A DNA stretch of 39,706 nt from Candidatus Woesearchaeota archaeon (GTDB taxonomy: Archaea; Nanobdellota; Nanobdellia; Woesearchaeales; JAGVZT01), in assembly GCA_018263355.1 (NCBI GenBank), contig JAANXH010000018.1:2602-42307 (forward strand), given 5' to 3'. A program made the translations under genes and the position numbers. Below are positions 18,971-33,505 of this stretch, one piece after another; position 1 is the first letter of the stretch, and each line of letters starts with the position of its first letter. The notes beneath the pieces are model-generated. The model saw only the letters and a list, made by a program, of their open reading frames with translations. It did no database searches and was not told the DNA's origin.

Positions 18971-19906
18971 GTGAGCATTATGAAGAGGGGGCAATTAAAT
19001 TTAAAAACTGACAATTGGTCTATAGATTTCTGGCTCGATATTCCGATAGAAAGTGTCCAATTCCAAAAACAAGACTTTCATTTTTCAGAACCAGCAGAAG
19101 CCATGCATGTGAGAAATGATTTTTGGCTTCAGGTTTTGCTTGATACTCAGCAGAGATTAAATACTGCTAATGGAGGAGGCTATTATATTGATGATGATAT
19201 GTCTACTGGGGGCAAAGCCCTTTACTTAGAAGACGGCAATATTTTTCTTTGGGATGGAAATACTATCTCTCCCACAGGTAAACCCTATTTTGATGGTAAT
19301 ACTCTCTGGTTATATTATGCAATAATTAAGTATTCAGCGATTGTGGCATGCAAAAATCCACAGTATGCAGATGCATTTGAAACCCAACAAGTGCCAAGTG
19401 CTGGTCTTGAACTGGATGTGTTAATTCAAACAACTGACGGGATTGTGTTTTCAGAAAGAGGCATAGCTTCAATTTACAGTTCAGGATGGAAACATCCCTT
19501 TTGTGTTTGTCCTGACCAAGATCCTATCAAATCTTTAATCCTTGGTTTAGAAAATGAGATTGGTCTTACAAGTGGTCAGGATTATTCAATTGAAGATATC
19601 CAAGCATTGGCTTATGGAGAAACAATTTTTGAAAACTCAGCTCATGACAGATATCATATTTTTTGTTTTCTCCAAATAGACATGAGATCCTATGAATTAA
19701 AAGAAAAGTTTCAAAGAAGTGCTTTTATTCATGATATGCCAGTAATTGACAGTTCAATTGAAAGGACCTTACATTCACTAAAAACCAATGGAAGTGATTT
19801 GACTCCAGCTGCAAAAGCTTCAATTGCCTGTTATTTTATGAAGCATCCCAATCCAAACATTGGAATTGATGATATTAGAGAATTATGTGAGCAAGGTTAC
19901 TTCTAA
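18971..19906 (+). CDS. 311-aa Nudix-like protein with degenerate Nudix box
   Basis: 'LELDVLIQTTDGIVFSERGIASIYSSGWKHPFCVCPDQDPIKSLILGLENEIGL' follows Nudix layout, but REUxEExGU reads LGLENEIGL. Confidence 0.55.
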   Translation: MSIMKRGQLNLKTDNWSIDFWLDIPIESVQFQKQDFHFSEPAEAMHVRNDFWLQVLLDTQQRLNTANGGGYYIDDDMSTGGKALYLEDGNIFLWDGNTISPTGKPYFDGNTLWLYYAIIKYSAIVACKNPQYADAFETQQVPSAGLELDVLIQTTDGIVFSERGIASIYSSGWKHPFCVCPDQDPIKSLILGLENEIGLTSGQDYSIEDIQALAYGETIFENSAHDRYHIFCFLQIDMRSYELKEKFQRSAFIHDMPVIDSSIERTLHSLKTNGSDLTPAAKASIACYFMKHPNPNIGIDDIRELCEQGYF

Positions 19907-21273
19907 GCCCATGGTTGAAAAGGCTCAATAAGAAGATCCTCAAGATTTCCCCCATTTTTAATGATCTCTGCAACAGCCTTGCACATATTATTCTGGTGAT
20001 TAATACATGGGCTTCCAGTAAATAGATCCTCACAATGCATTTTTTGTTCTTTATCTCCATATTTGCTTATTCTTATTTTTCTCTGTTTATTTCTTAACTT
20101 TAGAAATTTACTTGGATCTTGAATTAGTGATGCCATCAATGTGTGTAAAAAAATTCCTTTTAATTTAGCTGTTTTTATTAATATGTCATCTCTTTGCAAA
20201 AGTCTGATATGCATTACTGGAGTGTTATAATCCTGAGGTTTATTTCCATATCTGTTAATTGCCAAAACCAATAAATAGCCTGGCGCATGAATTGATGCCA
20301 TCTGTTCTATTCCCAGAGCATATGTTGCGGTCTGCAGGTCAAATGAGTTTTTCTGAAATCTTGCTCTTTTAAAGTCTCCAACAACAATTTGGCCGGTGTT
20401 TGCAAGTGTTAATAATAGGTCTGCAGTTCCTTTAAATACATATTCTTTTATTCCAAAATCTCGCCAGTCCATTTCTAATGACCTAAACCATTCTTTGTAA
20501 TGGCTTCTTTCATATTGAAAAGTGGTCATATCCCAAACATCTAGGTTTTTTAGTTTTCCTCCTTGCATAAAAGTGATAAGTCTGTCCAAATCAGTGGATA
20601 AATCTATTAATTCTTCAGATTGTATTTTTAATGCAACTGGTTTTTCAGTATAAACATTTCTTGGAACTTCAAATTCCCAAAAATCAGGATGCTGGTGCAT
20701 GAGCAATTTTTCATGATAAGGAAGCTTGTGGGCTGATGCAATTATATGTCTAATAGTTCCTGCTAGAGTAGCACCCACATCCAGTATTTTAATTTGAGAT
20801 TCTTTTCCTCTATAGCTGTTAGCAATGTGTAGTACTTTTTCTTTTTCTAGATTTGATAAAAGCACAGATAATGGGCACTTTGAGCTACTGTATTGGCTGG
20901 GTCTGCCATGATAATGGGGCAGGGATTGTACTTGATCACTAAAATTTTGAGTCTGTGCGATTTGAAAGGGGATTATAGGATTATTTTGAGTTAGAGAACT
21001 CAATTTACCTTCTCTTTGATCTGAGGTAACAAAAAAATAGGGGAGATTGTTTAGCTGCATTACCATATCTTCTGCACCGATCATTGTATAGCCTTCAGCT
21101 TTTGCATCTCTCATAATTACTTCTCGCTCTGTTTGAGGAAGTGCAGCAATAAAATCAGCCATGCATGGAAATTCATTATTATAGCAAGTTTCTTGTTCCT
21201 GTGGGAGTGAACAAGCTAAACATAAGTATCTACTGCATGGTTCAACTGGTCTTTGCATTTTAAATATCCTCAA
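19903..21273 (-). CDS. RecB/Cas4/Dna2-like PD-(D/E)XK nuclease with predicted Fe-S cluster (456 aa)
   Basis: 'KGTADLLLTLANTGQIVVGDFKRARFQKNSFDLQTATYALGIEQ' gives GxxD (D285), DxK (D300-F-K302), QxxxY (Q314/Y318); C133 in 'SSSKCPLSVLLS' and C414, C423, C431 as 1+3 cysteines. Confidence 0.75.
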   Translation of the reverse strand: MRIFKMQRPVEPCSRYLCLACSLPQEQETCYNNEFPCMADFIAALPQTEREVIMRDAKAEGYTMIGAEDMVMQLNNLPYFFVTSDQREGKLSSLTQNNPIIPFQIAQTQNFSDQVQSLPHYHGRPSQYSSSKCPLSVLLSNLEKEKVLHIANSYRGKESQIKILDVGATLAGTIRHIIASAHKLPYHEKLLMHQHPDFWEFEVPRNVYTEKPVALKIQSEELIDLSTDLDRLITFMQGGKLKNLDVWDMTTFQYERSHYKEWFRSLEMDWRDFGIKEYVFKGTADLLLTLANTGQIVVGDFKRARFQKNSFDLQTATYALGIEQMASIHAPGYLLVLAINRYGNKPQDYNTPVMHIRLLQRDDILIKTAKLKGIFLHTLMASLIQDPSKFLKLRNKQRKIRISKYGDKEQKMHCEDLFTGSPCINHQNNMCKAVAEIIKNGGNLEDLLIEPFQPWA

Positions 21274-22312
21274 AACTAAGTGAATTTACTGATCCAAGCT
21301 GTTCATAAACAATGAATTGTTTTAATTTTCTTAATGCACTTTTTGAAGCTTCAGCTATTCCTGGGTTTGTTTCATTTTCCATTATACTAACTTCATAAAG
21401 ACTTTTTTGAGAATTTTTGCCGGCTCTTTTTAAAATATCAAATAAAGGTGAAGTTTTGCATAGATAAGGATATAGTATTGTTGTATCAGGAATAAGATCA
21501 ATAATACGTGAGTACATTCTGGATATTAAGATTCTATTGTATCTTGTGTACAAAGGTACCTTTTCTTTGTATTCTGTTATTGTCATTTCATTACTTCTAA
21601 AGAATCTGATTGCTGTTTGATGATCTATAAATGAAGGTAGATACCAATAAAAAACTGATTCATAATTACCTTCAAGAACAGTTGAACCCATAAGTTTTTT
21701 TCCTTTCATCCTAAGAATATCATTTACTTCTTGTTTAATATTTCTCTGGACACTATTTATTTGCAGATTTTCTCCAAAAATGTTTCTTAAAGTAAATCCA
21801 TCATATTCAACAATGGAGAGTACTGGAGCTATCGGAATAAAAAATATATCTCTGTCCCTGAAATTATAATCTCCTTTAGCAAACTCTTCTTTTATGTCTA
21901 ATCTTGCAAGCATATTTTTTAGCCTTGTACCCATTTCACTAAAAATACTTGTAATATCCACTCCCACTTTTCTTGGAACTTTTGGAAATATCTTTGCTGC
22001 AAATTCATCTTCAGTAAGTTTAATTGCTTCCTCAAAATCAACAACAGACAGGCTTGGCATAAATACTATAATTGCATCCTGGAATAATTCTCTTAAGTCA
22101 ATATAAGAAATCTTTTTATGATAAAGCATATATTGCTCTAATGGTCCAATAACATAATTATTTTGTAATGTTTGTTTAGCTTGCTTGTGAACTTCTTCTA
22201 GTTGAGTGTTTTCAAAAAGTTTGTCATCTATTGTTGTATATGCCTGAGCTATTGCAAGCATTCTTCCAGGGCCATTGCCCAATGGCTCTGTTAACACTTT
22301 TCCCTGATGCAT
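21260..22312 (-). CDS. Hypothetical protein (350 aa), operon partner of the PD-(D/E)XK nuclease
   Basis: Long ORF overlapping the downstream nuclease gene by 14 nt; no family recognised. Confidence 0.85.
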   Translation of the reverse strand: MHQGKVLTEPLGNGPGRMLAIAQAYTTIDDKLFENTQLEEVHKQAKQTLQNNYVIGPLEQYMLYHKKISYIDLRELFQDAIIVFMPSLSVVDFEEAIKLTEDEFAAKIFPKVPRKVGVDITSIFSEMGTRLKNMLARLDIKEEFAKGDYNFRDRDIFFIPIAPVLSIVEYDGFTLRNIFGENLQINSVQRNIKQEVNDILRMKGKKLMGSTVLEGNYESVFYWYLPSFIDHQTAIRFFRSNEMTITEYKEKVPLYTRYNRILISRMYSRIIDLIPDTTILYPYLCKTSPLFDILKRAGKNSQKSLYEVSIMENETNPGIAEASKSALRKLKQFIVYEQLGSVNSLSFEDI

Positions 22313-22366
22313 ATGCTATTAGAATAAAAAAGATTATATATACTTTATCCTTTTTACTACTTTATA

Positions 22367-25333
22367 ATGAGAGTCTCAAGATATTTCACTAAACAATTTG
22401 ATAACCAAACTTGGACTAAATTATTCTTCAGACATCATGATCTTAATTTAGGGCCTTTGATTATTCCAATGCCCACGATTTATGCAACTAAAAGAGCTAT
22501 ACCTATCCAAAGTAGAGATGATCCTGATTTAAGTTTTGAAAATATTGTTTCTGGAATAATAGATGAGGCTATTAAGCAAAATAATAACTCTGATGAGCAA
22601 GTTGAATATAGTGTACAAGAATTTCCTTTTACAGCAAGAAAAAAGAATGCACATATTCAGGTTTTTGGTGATTCCAGTGCTTTGGAAGATGCTCTAAGTC
22701 AGGGTCTTGCGAGGAAGTTTTTCAGAAGAAAAAATATGGGATATACTGAATGGCTTAGATTATTTTTTGATTGGACAAAACCAGTGGAATTGCATGAAGA
22801 TATTACTACAGCCCTAGAGTTGCAGAGCCAAGCACATAATTTAATGAGATTAATTGGTGATCATTTTTTATTTGATGCTGAAACAGGATTGATTAAGGCA
22901 GAGGATAAATTGAGAATCGCAGGTATGCAATCTAAAGAATATATTGATTTTCTTGCTGGAGACCGAAAGGCTATTCCTGATAACATGCAAAAAGTGTGGG
23001 ATCAAAGAATGGATGTCAAAAGAAATTTGTCAAGGCAAATTGGTCAATTGAGAAAAGGCTGGCAAAACTCAACATATGATCATTTGCCTGGAGAGGTATT
23101 TGCATTATTGTTAGACCTAAAAGATGTTGATTACCAAGTAAGACAATTAATTGAGCCTTTTGGTGGGTCTGTTGAGCAAAGCTTTAGACATTATTTGTAC
23201 CAATTATTCCTGCCAGGTTATGATATAATGAATTTAAAGTTTCTTGATCGAGCAGACGATTCTATTACAAATGTTGGATCTTGGGATATTGAAACCACTA
23301 AATATAGAGGAAGTATTAGAACTCCTGGCCAAAGAATTCCAAAAGATCCCAGAGTTTGGTTGATTGCTTTATCAGCCAACAGGGGCGTTCCAGAAGAATT
23401 TGCATATTTATTGGATAATCCCCTGTTTGAATTGCCTGACAGTATTGATTGGCCGGTAAGTGATATTGCTGTGGGTTATCTTGATATTGGTGCTGATCAT
23501 ATTGTTCTTGATTCAGAAGAAAAGATCCCATATATTTTTCAGCAGGACGCACATCATGTTGTAAGAACTTTCTCATTTTTACATCAAGTATTTCAACTTA
23601 GTGTTTCTGGTGGACATAATACCTGGAGCTATGATGCATCTAGAGCAATGAATCCAAATAGGGATTTAATTGCAATTGCTGATTTACATCCACTATTGGA
23701 AAAATATGATTTGTATAGAGATTTATTTACAAAAGATCAGGGGATGTGTAGGTTAAGCAGTGATAATTCTGGACCTGCTTACAGATCAAATGCTTGGCCA
23801 ACTCAGTTTGACTTTACTGCAAAACGAGCCGACACTCTAAATCCAGCAAGGTTTTATTTATCAGGTTTAACTCTTGATCAAACTCTTGAGTCACTAAGTG
23901 CTTTGATTCATTTTATAACAGGAACAGGATTTGGTTTCAAAAAATCAATTGTTGGTTATGATCAAGTAGAAGCAGCTGTGGCAAAAGGTGAACTTGGTGA
24001 TTCGGATGGTGCAAAAGAAGCAGTTGCATACGGAGCTGGAGATACAATTGGACAGTTGGATATTATGAATAATTTAGTGCCTATTTATGAGTTTATCTCG
24101 CAAACAATGAAAATTCCTTTTGATGATATTTTCCAGTCTCCACCAAAGAATGTTGCATCTCTTTTTTGGCAAAGAAAATTTGCACAAAAGAGCGGAATCA
24201 TAAAAAGTTATTTTGAATTAAAAAAATATGAGGAATTTGATTTACAAAAAAGTAAGAGAAAAGCATTAGAAATTGCATATTCAGGAACACAAAATTCTGA
24301 ACTTATAACCAGGAAAGGAGCTATTGAAAATGTAGCTATGCTTATGACTCCATTTTTTTCAGAGTCAACCCATGAAATAATTGAGCAGGATCCTGTTCTA
24401 GCAAGCTTACGTGAAAGATTAATCTCTTCGAATAATATTCTTGAAAAAGTAGTTTTACAAAAAATACTTGATAATCTAGCAGTTTATTATTTGCTTGATG
24501 CCAAGACTTCTTCACTAAATGGTAAGCCTGCTGATGGTGCACTTTACCACAGGTATGGTATTCAGGGAGGATATAATAATAATGCAAAATATTTATTAGA
24601 TATGTTTAGGCAGGGTATGATTGACCTGGCTGAGCCTCTTAATGAAAGAATTGTGAATTATACAGGAGATTATGTTTTTATTGATAATGATCCAGAGCTT
24701 ATCAAACAACTTGTAGATCTTGACTATACTTTTATTGGTGAGGGTGACGCAATTTCAGTTTCACCACATAGTATTATTTACCAGCTAAATAATGAGAATA
24801 ACAATCACCTTGCAGCTACAGGATTTAAAATTCAAAGTCCAAAAAAAAGGCATACTCCTGATTATTTATTAAAGGGATTTAATCCAAATTTTTATGATAA
24901 TTGGATTCATGATATTGCAGTTATTTGTTTAAATGAAGGATTAAAAAGAGCTGGTGAACATATTGAAGAACAGATTACAAATATGAAAAAACTACCAGCT
25001 GAAGAATTTTTTATGACACTAAAACCAGGTAAGAAGTTTAAGAACTATTCATTCCCTTACAGAAATACTCTCAGGTACAAGTTAGAGGATCTTGCAAATC
25101 TTGAACCTAACCAGAGCAGAGTAGTTGTGATTGGAAGTGATGATTGCAAACATATTGATCTTCAGATAGTTGATGCAAATGAACCAGATTCATGGAATCA
25201 GCAACCTTTTATCCCATTTTATCTGAAAATGGCATTTGATCCTAACAAAAATCTAATGAAACTGTGCAAATCTCTAGGTTTGAAACAGGTTGTTGATCAA
25301 GCTTTGAATTATCATCAAACTGATTTTACTTAA
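22367..25333 (+). CDS. Divergent B-family DNA polymerase homologue; exonuclease motifs intact, polymerase active site apparently inactivated
   Basis: ExoI 'SWDIETTKY' (D307/E309), ExoII 'HNTWSYD' (N418/D423), ExoIII 'YGAGD' (Y555/D559); motif A region 'IENVAMLMTPFFSES' lacks Asp (M660); motif C region 'IVNYTGDYVFI' lacks DTD; palm/thumb spacing otherwise resembles PolB. Confidence 0.8.
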   Translation: MRVSRYFTKQFDNQTWTKLFFRHHDLNLGPLIIPMPTIYATKRAIPIQSRDDPDLSFENIVSGIIDEAIKQNNNSDEQVEYSVQEFPFTARKKNAHIQVFGDSSALEDALSQGLARKFFRRKNMGYTEWLRLFFDWTKPVELHEDITTALELQSQAHNLMRLIGDHFLFDAETGLIKAEDKLRIAGMQSKEYIDFLAGDRKAIPDNMQKVWDQRMDVKRNLSRQIGQLRKGWQNSTYDHLPGEVFALLLDLKDVDYQVRQLIEPFGGSVEQSFRHYLYQLFLPGYDIMNLKFLDRADDSITNVGSWDIETTKYRGSIRTPGQRIPKDPRVWLIALSANRGVPEEFAYLLDNPLFELPDSIDWPVSDIAVGYLDIGADHIVLDSEEKIPYIFQQDAHHVVRTFSFLHQVFQLSVSGGHNTWSYDASRAMNPNRDLIAIADLHPLLEKYDLYRDLFTKDQGMCRLSSDNSGPAYRSNAWPTQFDFTAKRADTLNPARFYLSGLTLDQTLESLSALIHFITGTGFGFKKSIVGYDQVEAAVAKGELGDSDGAKEAVAYGAGDTIGQLDIMNNLVPIYEFISQTMKIPFDDIFQSPPKNVASLFWQRKFAQKSGIIKSYFELKKYEEFDLQKSKRKALEIAYSGTQNSELITRKGAIENVAMLMTPFFSESTHEIIEQDPVLASLRERLISSNNILEKVVLQKILDNLAVYYLLDAKTSSLNGKPADGALYHRYGIQGGYNNNAKYLLDMFRQGMIDLAEPLNERIVNYTGDYVFIDNDPELIKQLVDLDYTFIGEGDAISVSPHSIIYQLNNENNNHLAATGFKIQSPKKRHTPDYLLKGFNPNFYDNWIHDIAVICLNEGLKRAGEHIEEQITNMKKLPAEEFFMTLKPGKKFKNYSFPYRNTLRYKLEDLANLEPNQSRVVVIGSDDCKHIDLQIVDANEPDSWNQQPFIPFYLKMAFDPNKNLMKLCKSLGLKQVVDQALNYHQTDFT

Positions 25334-31987: not shown

Positions 31988-33505
31988 ATGAGTTCATCCA
32001 GTCCTCCAGCAGAATCTGAATTGGAAAGAAAGGCTAATACAGTAAGTGAAGCTGTTAAAAAGGCAGCTAGGAAAACTACACAAGCAGTTAGAAATTTCAG
32101 AGAAGATCCAGTTGGAGAATATTTAGAATCTATATTTGGGCATCTAACAGCTTACGGTTTACTAAGTTTTCAAAACTATAATGGTAATTCTCCTCTTTGG
32201 CCTCAAAGAACTGTAGTGGCTAGTTGTGTACTTGACTTTATTAATAATTATTTATATCATTCCTCAGAAAATCCTGGGAAGACATTGAAAACAATAGATA
32301 CAGTATTTAATGTTTGTCAAGGTGGGACAGGACTTGGCTTAATAGCAGATGGATTTGTAAATGGAGATGAGCCCAAGCTTATTATTAATCTTTTAAGTGG
32401 ATTAGTTGGAAAACCAGCAGATTTGCCTTATACTGGAAAAAGTGCTCTTCCTTCAATTTTTGCCGGCTCTCAGATGCTAAGAGCTGCAACAAGAAGAGCC
32501 AATATTAAAGAATCTCTTGAAAATCTTATTCCTTCAGGTATAAAAAAATGGTATAATGATACCCCATCAGGAAATGTTGTTGGTGATTTTGCTAGATACA
32601 GTTTATTGACAGCTTATGCTGTTTATTTATCAAAAGAAGGTTTACCAGTTAATCCTTTGGTACCAGTGGGGATTTTCAGTGGCGAAATAATTACTGATAC
32701 AGCAAAAGCTATTTCAAAAAAGTCAAAAAAGGGAATAAAGGCTGCAACAAGTGGTATTGAAATGTCTTATAACATATTTCAGTTAGGTTTTGCAGGAAAA
32801 TACGTTTTACAAGCATATAATGCTGATGAAGTAAGTCACCTAGTGTGGTCCATTAAAAATTTGGGTCATAAATTGGAAAGTTTGGCTAATCTTCCACTTT
32901 CTGGTGAATTTTCTGCAGATCCTGAAGTAACAGGGATTTCTCTTTTGTACACTCTTATGTTTACACATACCTTGGTTAAGACAGTTGCAAAGGATTTTGG
33001 GGGATATAGTCAAAAAATACAAATTGAAAAACCACAATTACCAGAGGTAAGTGCTTTAGGACAGAAAGTTAGAGGTGCTGGCACCGCGGCTCAAAAAGGT
33101 ATTGGTAGAGTAATACAAGGATTGAAAACAAGATTTTTTAATAAAGAGAAAAACACACACACACAAGAAGTTACCACAACCTATGGGGATCCTAATAAGT
33201 TATTGGGTGAGTATACGGAACTGCTTTCACAAAACTGTACAAATAAAGGAAAAAAGATGCAGACTCAAAAACTAACTGAAAATACGCTTTATGCTATACT
33301 TGATGGTGATCAAAGAGACTTAAAGGGGAATCTAGAAAAATTTGCACAAATTGTTAAATCTAATACCGACGGAAGAAGGTCAGATCCCAAATTGCAAGCA
33401 GTTAATTCTGCTTTAAACTTAATATATGACCAGGATGTAACAAAATACAAACCTGCAATTTTGAATTTAAGCAAAAGTATTCCAGGTATGAACATAGTAG
33501 CCTGA
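31988..33505 (+). CDS. Hypothetical membrane protein with apparent internal duplication (505 aa)
   Basis: Hydrophobic segments; two halves share 'xPxG...LTAY', '(F/Y)N..Q.G..G', 'LP.(S/T)G' landmarks in the same order. Confidence 0.75.
   Translation: MSSSSPPAESELERKANTVSEAVKKAARKTTQAVRNFREDPVGEYLESIFGHLTAYGLLSFQNYNGNSPLWPQRTVVASCVLDFINNYLYHSSENPGKTLKTIDTVFNVCQGGTGLGLIADGFVNGDEPKLIINLLSGLVGKPADLPYTGKSALPSIFAGSQMLRAATRRANIKESLENLIPSGIKKWYNDTPSGNVVGDFARYSLLTAYAVYLSKEGLPVNPLVPVGIFSGEIITDTAKAISKKSKKGIKAATSGIEMSYNIFQLGFAGKYVLQAYNADEVSHLVWSIKNLGHKLESLANLPLSGEFSADPEVTGISLLYTLMFTHTLVKTVAKDFGGYSQKIQIEKPQLPEVSALGQKVRGAGTAAQKGIGRVIQGLKTRFFNKEKNTHTQEVTTTYGDPNKLLGEYTELLSQNCTNKGKKMQTQKLTENTLYAILDGDQRDLKGNLEKFAQIVKSNTDGRRSDPKLQAVNSALNLIYDQDVTKYKPAILNLSKSIPGMNIVA

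Follow-up and report, generated by a model that had tools for sequence, protein, structure and literature searches.

The window analysed in the present study, a 39,706-nucleotide stretch of DNA from a Candidatus Woesearchaeota archaeon, carries three adjacent genes, hereafter named A, B and C. Gene A (22367–25333, + strand) encodes a 988-residue homologue of the family-B DNA polymerases (PolBs) in which the exonuclease residues are kept and the polymerase residues are lost; its reading frame runs uninterrupted between these coordinates, and its genome (1.17-Mb assembly, 60 contigs) contains a single copy. On the opposite strand lie gene B (21260–22312, − strand), which encodes an uncharacterized partner of 350 residues, and gene C (19903–21258, − strand), encoding a Cas4/RecB-like PD-(D/E)XK nuclease of 451 residues, whose ATG start is located one base past the stop codon of B. 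A and B start divergently on either side of an AT-rich spacer of 54 bp (22313–22366), which is probably a shared promoter region; similar short spacers were found at most of the other loci described below.

No significant relative was found when the gene A sequence alone was searched against Pfam, PHROGs, NCBIfam, PADLOC, the PDB, and collections of genomes and viruses. Of the five weak matches obtained among 371 genomes of the phylum, four were real, and the match at L006/L011 was rejected as spurious, because the protein is unrelated and its locus pilus-like. Within the order, an alignment of these first relatives then matched 32 of 353 genomes; the matches in G027, G158 and G293 were canonical PolBs by their motifs. 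Further search rounds added distant members, and the final alignment contained 46 gene A family sequences. The family occurs in small-genome archaea related to that of the window, including the archaeon isolates DeMMO3_37 and DeMMO3_27, with intact reading frames and approximately 13–25% identity to the window protein (26-member alignment). Judging from genome size, gene content and the literature, these hosts are probably DPANN archaea. The gene A family is patchy in distribution and fast-evolving. A profile tally at E≤1e-10 could not be used to estimate its prevalence, because canonical PolBs match the same profile through their exonuclease domain.

Comparison of profiles tied the family to archaeal PolBs. 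A 21-sequence family profile aligned by hhalign with 22 canonical PolBs from related genomes at a probability of 99.2 and an E-value of 9.6e-20 over 498 columns, running from the exonuclease domain through the palm to the thumb, whereas the reversed-profile control gave an E-value of 0.35. A 26-sequence profile matched archaeal PolB structures in the PDB with E-values down to 3.7e-26, and the match to 2jgu was aligned across residues 103–727, most of its length. Pfam models picked up just a few family members, and weakly. In a tree of 67 sequences every canonical PolB was split from the gene A family with a support of 1.0; as the tree is unrooted, it shows two distinct groups and not the order of events. 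By homology, as seen in these alignments, the gene A family is part of the family-B DNA polymerase superfamily. An AlphaFold model of gene A, built on a shallow alignment of three sequences, was of low confidence (pLDDT 34).

All three exonuclease motifs named in the sequence-only reading are intact and align with the residues that are invariant in the 22 canonical PolBs. ExoI (D307-x-E309; 23285–23293, + strand) was present in 45/45 sequences with letters there, the Asp of ExoII (HNTWSYD, D423; 23615–23635, + strand) in 44/45, and the Tyr and Asp of ExoIII (Y555-G-A-G-D559; 24029–24043, + strand) in 45/46 and 46/46 respectively, compared with 22/22 for each motif in the canonical enzymes. The only invariant columns of the 26-member family alignment were D307, E309, D423, D489, Y555 and D559, all six being exonuclease-domain positions of canonical PolBs and invariant in 22/22 of these as well. 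In the wider 46-member set the six residues were conserved in 43–46 of 45–46 sequences. That this retention exceeds chance is well supported, and the predicted DEDDy-type exonuclease site of gene A is, by this pattern of conservation, under strong selection.

The former polymerase site showed the opposite pattern. In motif A (residues 651–665; 24317–24361, + strand), M660 replaces the catalytic Asp, as had been proposed from the window protein and as the joint alignment with canonical PolBs confirmed. This position is Asp in 1/45 and Tyr in 31/45 family sequences, versus Asp in 22/22 canonical PolBs, and the two motif-C Asps are retained in 5/45 and 3/45, again versus 22/22. For motif C itself (IVNYTGDY, residues 762–769; 24650–24673, + strand), the register depends on the method. 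The earlier placement of NYT under the canonical DTD was reproduced by the HMMER alignment to 2jgu (residues 764–766, with N764 and T766 at the Asp positions), but the profile–profile and joint alignments favoured T766-G767-D768, which puts D768 at the position of the second Asp. D768 is not conserved (Thr in L007 and Asn in L042), and motif A lacks its Asp in either register; the loss thus appears to extend to the whole two-metal polymerase site. With few exceptions, the gene A family has neither the motif-A catalytic Asp nor the motif-C DTD of an active PolB. In place of these motifs its members share other residues, Y-[LF]-T-P-F around residue 660 and I-N at 763–764, so the inactivated palm remains under constraint. 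The claim of an exonuclease-intact, polymerase-dead PolB homologue thus holds in the alignments of 26 and 46 sequences for the whole family and not for one protein only, and in this family a polymerase fold has evidently outlasted polymerization.

We considered whether gene A might still polymerize through D768 together with an unrecognized second carboxylate. Two of the alignments do place D768 under the second Asp of motif C, and PolB2, once called inactive, later proved to be active (PMC11791011). However, motif A is without Asp in 44/45 sequences, and D768 is kept in only 3/45 and is absent from the nearest relatives, which makes residual polymerase activity very improbable.

Canonical archaeal PolBs (2jgu, 1wns and the window genome's own enzyme, G000 C43) share with gene A the exonuclease–palm–thumb order, all of the exonuclease residues and approximately 500 similar columns; unlike them, gene A lacks the carboxylates of motifs A and C. 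The comparison with PolB2 made in the sequence-only reading was misleading. Although PolB2/Dpo2 is also an archaeal PolB paralogue with an altered polymerase site, its exonuclease has decayed, its polymerase works, and it is found in an operon with iRadA and PPB2 (PMC4104785, PMC11791011). The pattern in gene A is reversed: the exonuclease residues are essentially invariant, the adjoining genes are B and C, and no RadA-type Pfam match was obtained among the window genes scanned. Gene A is not PolB2. It also differs from the casposon PolBs, which are active and lie beside cas1, in that its polymerase site is lost and no Cas1 was found among the window genes scanned.

Inactivated PolB modules are known elsewhere. 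The C-terminal half of Pol epsilon is an inactivated PolB module of the replicase that serves without catalysis (PMC7544198); in poxvirus F12 the polymerase has been lost and the exonuclease probably too, although its authors allow for residual activity (PMC4304020). Gene A resembles both as an inactivated module and differs from F12 in having kept its exonuclease residues. By analogy with the Pol epsilon module, gene A could function chiefly as a structural or regulatory subunit that binds DNA, using its exonuclease fold for binding more than for cleavage. We regard this as improbable, since conservation centres on the carboxylates that bind metal and on the Tyr of ExoIII, as catalysis would predict, and scaffold modules usually lose such catalytic residues. 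In the inactivated B-family polymerases of the papers covered here, loss extends to the exonuclease or, probably, to both sites (PMC4104785, PMC11791011, PMC4304020 and PMC7544198). An exonuclease-intact, polymerase-dead group is not mentioned in the consulted passages of the last, a broad PolB survey, and none of the papers covered reports a family that strictly retains the exonuclease but no longer has the polymerase. A precedent for the conversion of a polymerase into an exonuclease comes from PolX, with a dead polymerase and an active PHP exonuclease (PMC12926913). The evolutionary logic is the same, a nuclease kept and a polymerase lost, but PolX belongs to the unrelated family X and its nuclease is of the PHP type. 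If our reading of gene A is correct, its family would be the family-B counterpart of this conversion.

Gene C has the motifs expected of a Cas4-type nuclease. Residues H176, D285, D300-x-K302, Q314 and Y318 were invariant in 15 C-domain sequences, corresponding to the H, G-x2-D, D-x-K and Q-x3-Y motifs, with the catalytic D-x-K (D300/K302, TTG-start numbering) at 20368–20376 (− strand). C133 and C423 were also invariant in these sequences, and C414 and C431 nearly so; the three C-terminal cysteine residues (C414/C423/C431) are encoded at 19981–20034 (− strand), and together with C133 they probably form an Fe–S cluster. Four of the 15 members matched PDDEXK_1 (E-value 7e-7) and a few matched Cas4 models (to 4e-5); the window protein matched curated nuclease models only weakly (0.056), and gene C gave no match in the PDB. 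The solo-Cas4 and PD-(D/E)XK nucleases have the same motifs and cysteine residues, and solo-Cas4 has been reported in these archaea without a link to a polymerase, a word absent from the main text of that survey (PMC5704561). Gene C differs from them in being fused or coupled to B and divergently paired with A. No relative of gene B could be detected, and since none of its residues is invariant, it shows no sign of an active site of its own. Its AlphaFold model (two sequences, shallow alignment) was of low confidence (pLDDT 36). A further ORF of 311 residues (18971–19906, + strand), of no detectable family and convergent with gene C with a four-base overlap, was rejected as a component of the system because it is without relatives at the other A-B-C loci.

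The divergent A-B-C layout recurs in about 26 genomes, with B and C either split or fused as one protein of 660–950 residues (the window, L008-L010, L042-L045, L047, L049, L052-L054, L058, L061, L067, L068, L097-L101, L108, L118 and L120, and also G233, by contig ends). An independent search with the fused B–C protein matched 22 genomes, all of which except one marginal match also have A, and A was adjacent wherever the contig permits. The proposed linkage of gene A to a RecB-like nuclease was therefore upheld, the nuclease being Cas4-like. The conserved partner genes make the suggestion of a stand-alone exonuclease doubtful for the window lineage. Many family members, however, occur alone in core chromosomal neighbourhoods, showing that the partnership with B–C is not obligatory. 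This solo set comes mainly from one family of the order, and by inspection its neighbours look like genes for DnaG primase, RIO kinase and KH proteins. Inspection also revealed PCNA-like genes within a few hundred bases of A or of fused B–C (L107, L097, L054 and L058), a Rad50-like gene downstream at L099, and DnaG-like genes beside A at some loci.

The conserved pairing of A with a Cas4-like nuclease suggests a system for trimming or repairing DNA ends. We propose, with a probability of about 0.5, that gene A is a PolB-derived dedicated 3′–5′ exonuclease which, together with B and the Cas4-like C, processes DNA ends or flaps during repair, recombination or replication restart. A family-B DNA polymerase ancestor would have become a dedicated 3′–5′ DNA exonuclease, whose dead palm and thumb, judging from PolB architecture, may serve as a DNA-holding scaffold steering 3′ ends into the exonuclease site. 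B would probably act as a scaffold and C as the Cas4/RecB-like nuclease, both being transcribed divergently from the spacer shared with A; A would trim 3′ strands, and C would cut or degrade the other strand. The odds fall a little short of even that the whole family of archaeal PolB descendants consists of dedicated 3′–5′ exonucleases which join a Cas4-like nuclease and a novel partner protein in a previously undescribed DNA-end-processing complex. If so, small-genome archaea, in which repair is poorly known, would gain a testable DNA-processing module, and their Cas4-like nucleases would gain a partner.

The chromosomal context is consistent with a role in DNA maintenance. The window is ordinary chromosome, with genes for DNA ligase, SMC, an OB-fold protein, a clamp-loader-like AAA protein, aminoacyl-tRNA synthetases, ribosomal L10, PGK and GAPDH; the first four, and the PCNA-, DnaG- and Rad50-like genes seen by inspection elsewhere, support the end-processing reading. 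A 505-residue ORF at 31988–33505 (+ strand) had no Pfam match at an E-value of 1e-5. The base composition of A-B-C resembles that of the flanking genes, and searches of viral contigs, phages and plasmids detected no relatives; a mobile-element origin is thus unsupported. A-B-C could instead be a chromosomal system that defends these archaea against viruses or plasmids, in which A and the Cas4-like C would destroy incoming DNA. The patchy distribution, the strong sequence divergence and the Cas4-type nuclease would fit, and solo-Cas4 of these archaea has been proposed to act in defence on the basis of its neighbour genes (PMC5704561). Yet no defence genes were recognized beside the loci, the neighbours being core replication and translation genes whose base composition A-B-C resembles, and PADLOC did not match A at all and matched B only at chance level. 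We therefore consider a defence role unlikely.

Gene A does not replace a host polymerase, as PolB was present in 55/59 and PolD in 57/59 genomes examined. The retention of both, along with the PolB-type proofreading site, would suit an editing exonuclease acting in trans: A would remove mismatched or frayed 3′ ends that PolD or PolB leaves behind, perhaps via the sliding clamp. The solo members and the PCNA-like genes adjacent at several loci would also fit such a role, and about one-third of the family members (e.g. L007, L055, L059 and L064) end in a Q-x2-L-F-like C-terminus resembling a PCNA-binding peptide. On the other hand, this motif is missing from many members, the window protein included, canonical PolBs retain their own exonuclease residues, and the conserved Cas4-like partner is left unexplained, so that editing in trans seems rather unlikely. 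As for the end-processing reading, the solo members count against it, as do the patchy distribution and fast evolution of the family, which would also fit defence, and the unaltered presence of NurA. NurA was found in 13/21 A-B-C genomes, 6/12 A-only genomes and 11/26 controls, at least four of which (G003, G008, G037 and G086) carry distant A members, leaving the conclusion unchanged. NurA is neither depleted nor replaced, so its replacement by A-B-C is unsupported, and no sign of compensation points to a role in resection.

A second divergent PolB is present in the window's own genome (L103:4104-6641, − strand; G000 contig C40), and a similar gene was found in G001 (L105). It has kept motif A (EVDFSSMFP), has GIVDS at motif C, and its exonuclease motifs are unrecognizable by eye; its C-terminus contains a VRR-NUC-like segment (HHGMPDF...VECK). 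In these features the second PolB looks complementary to gene A.
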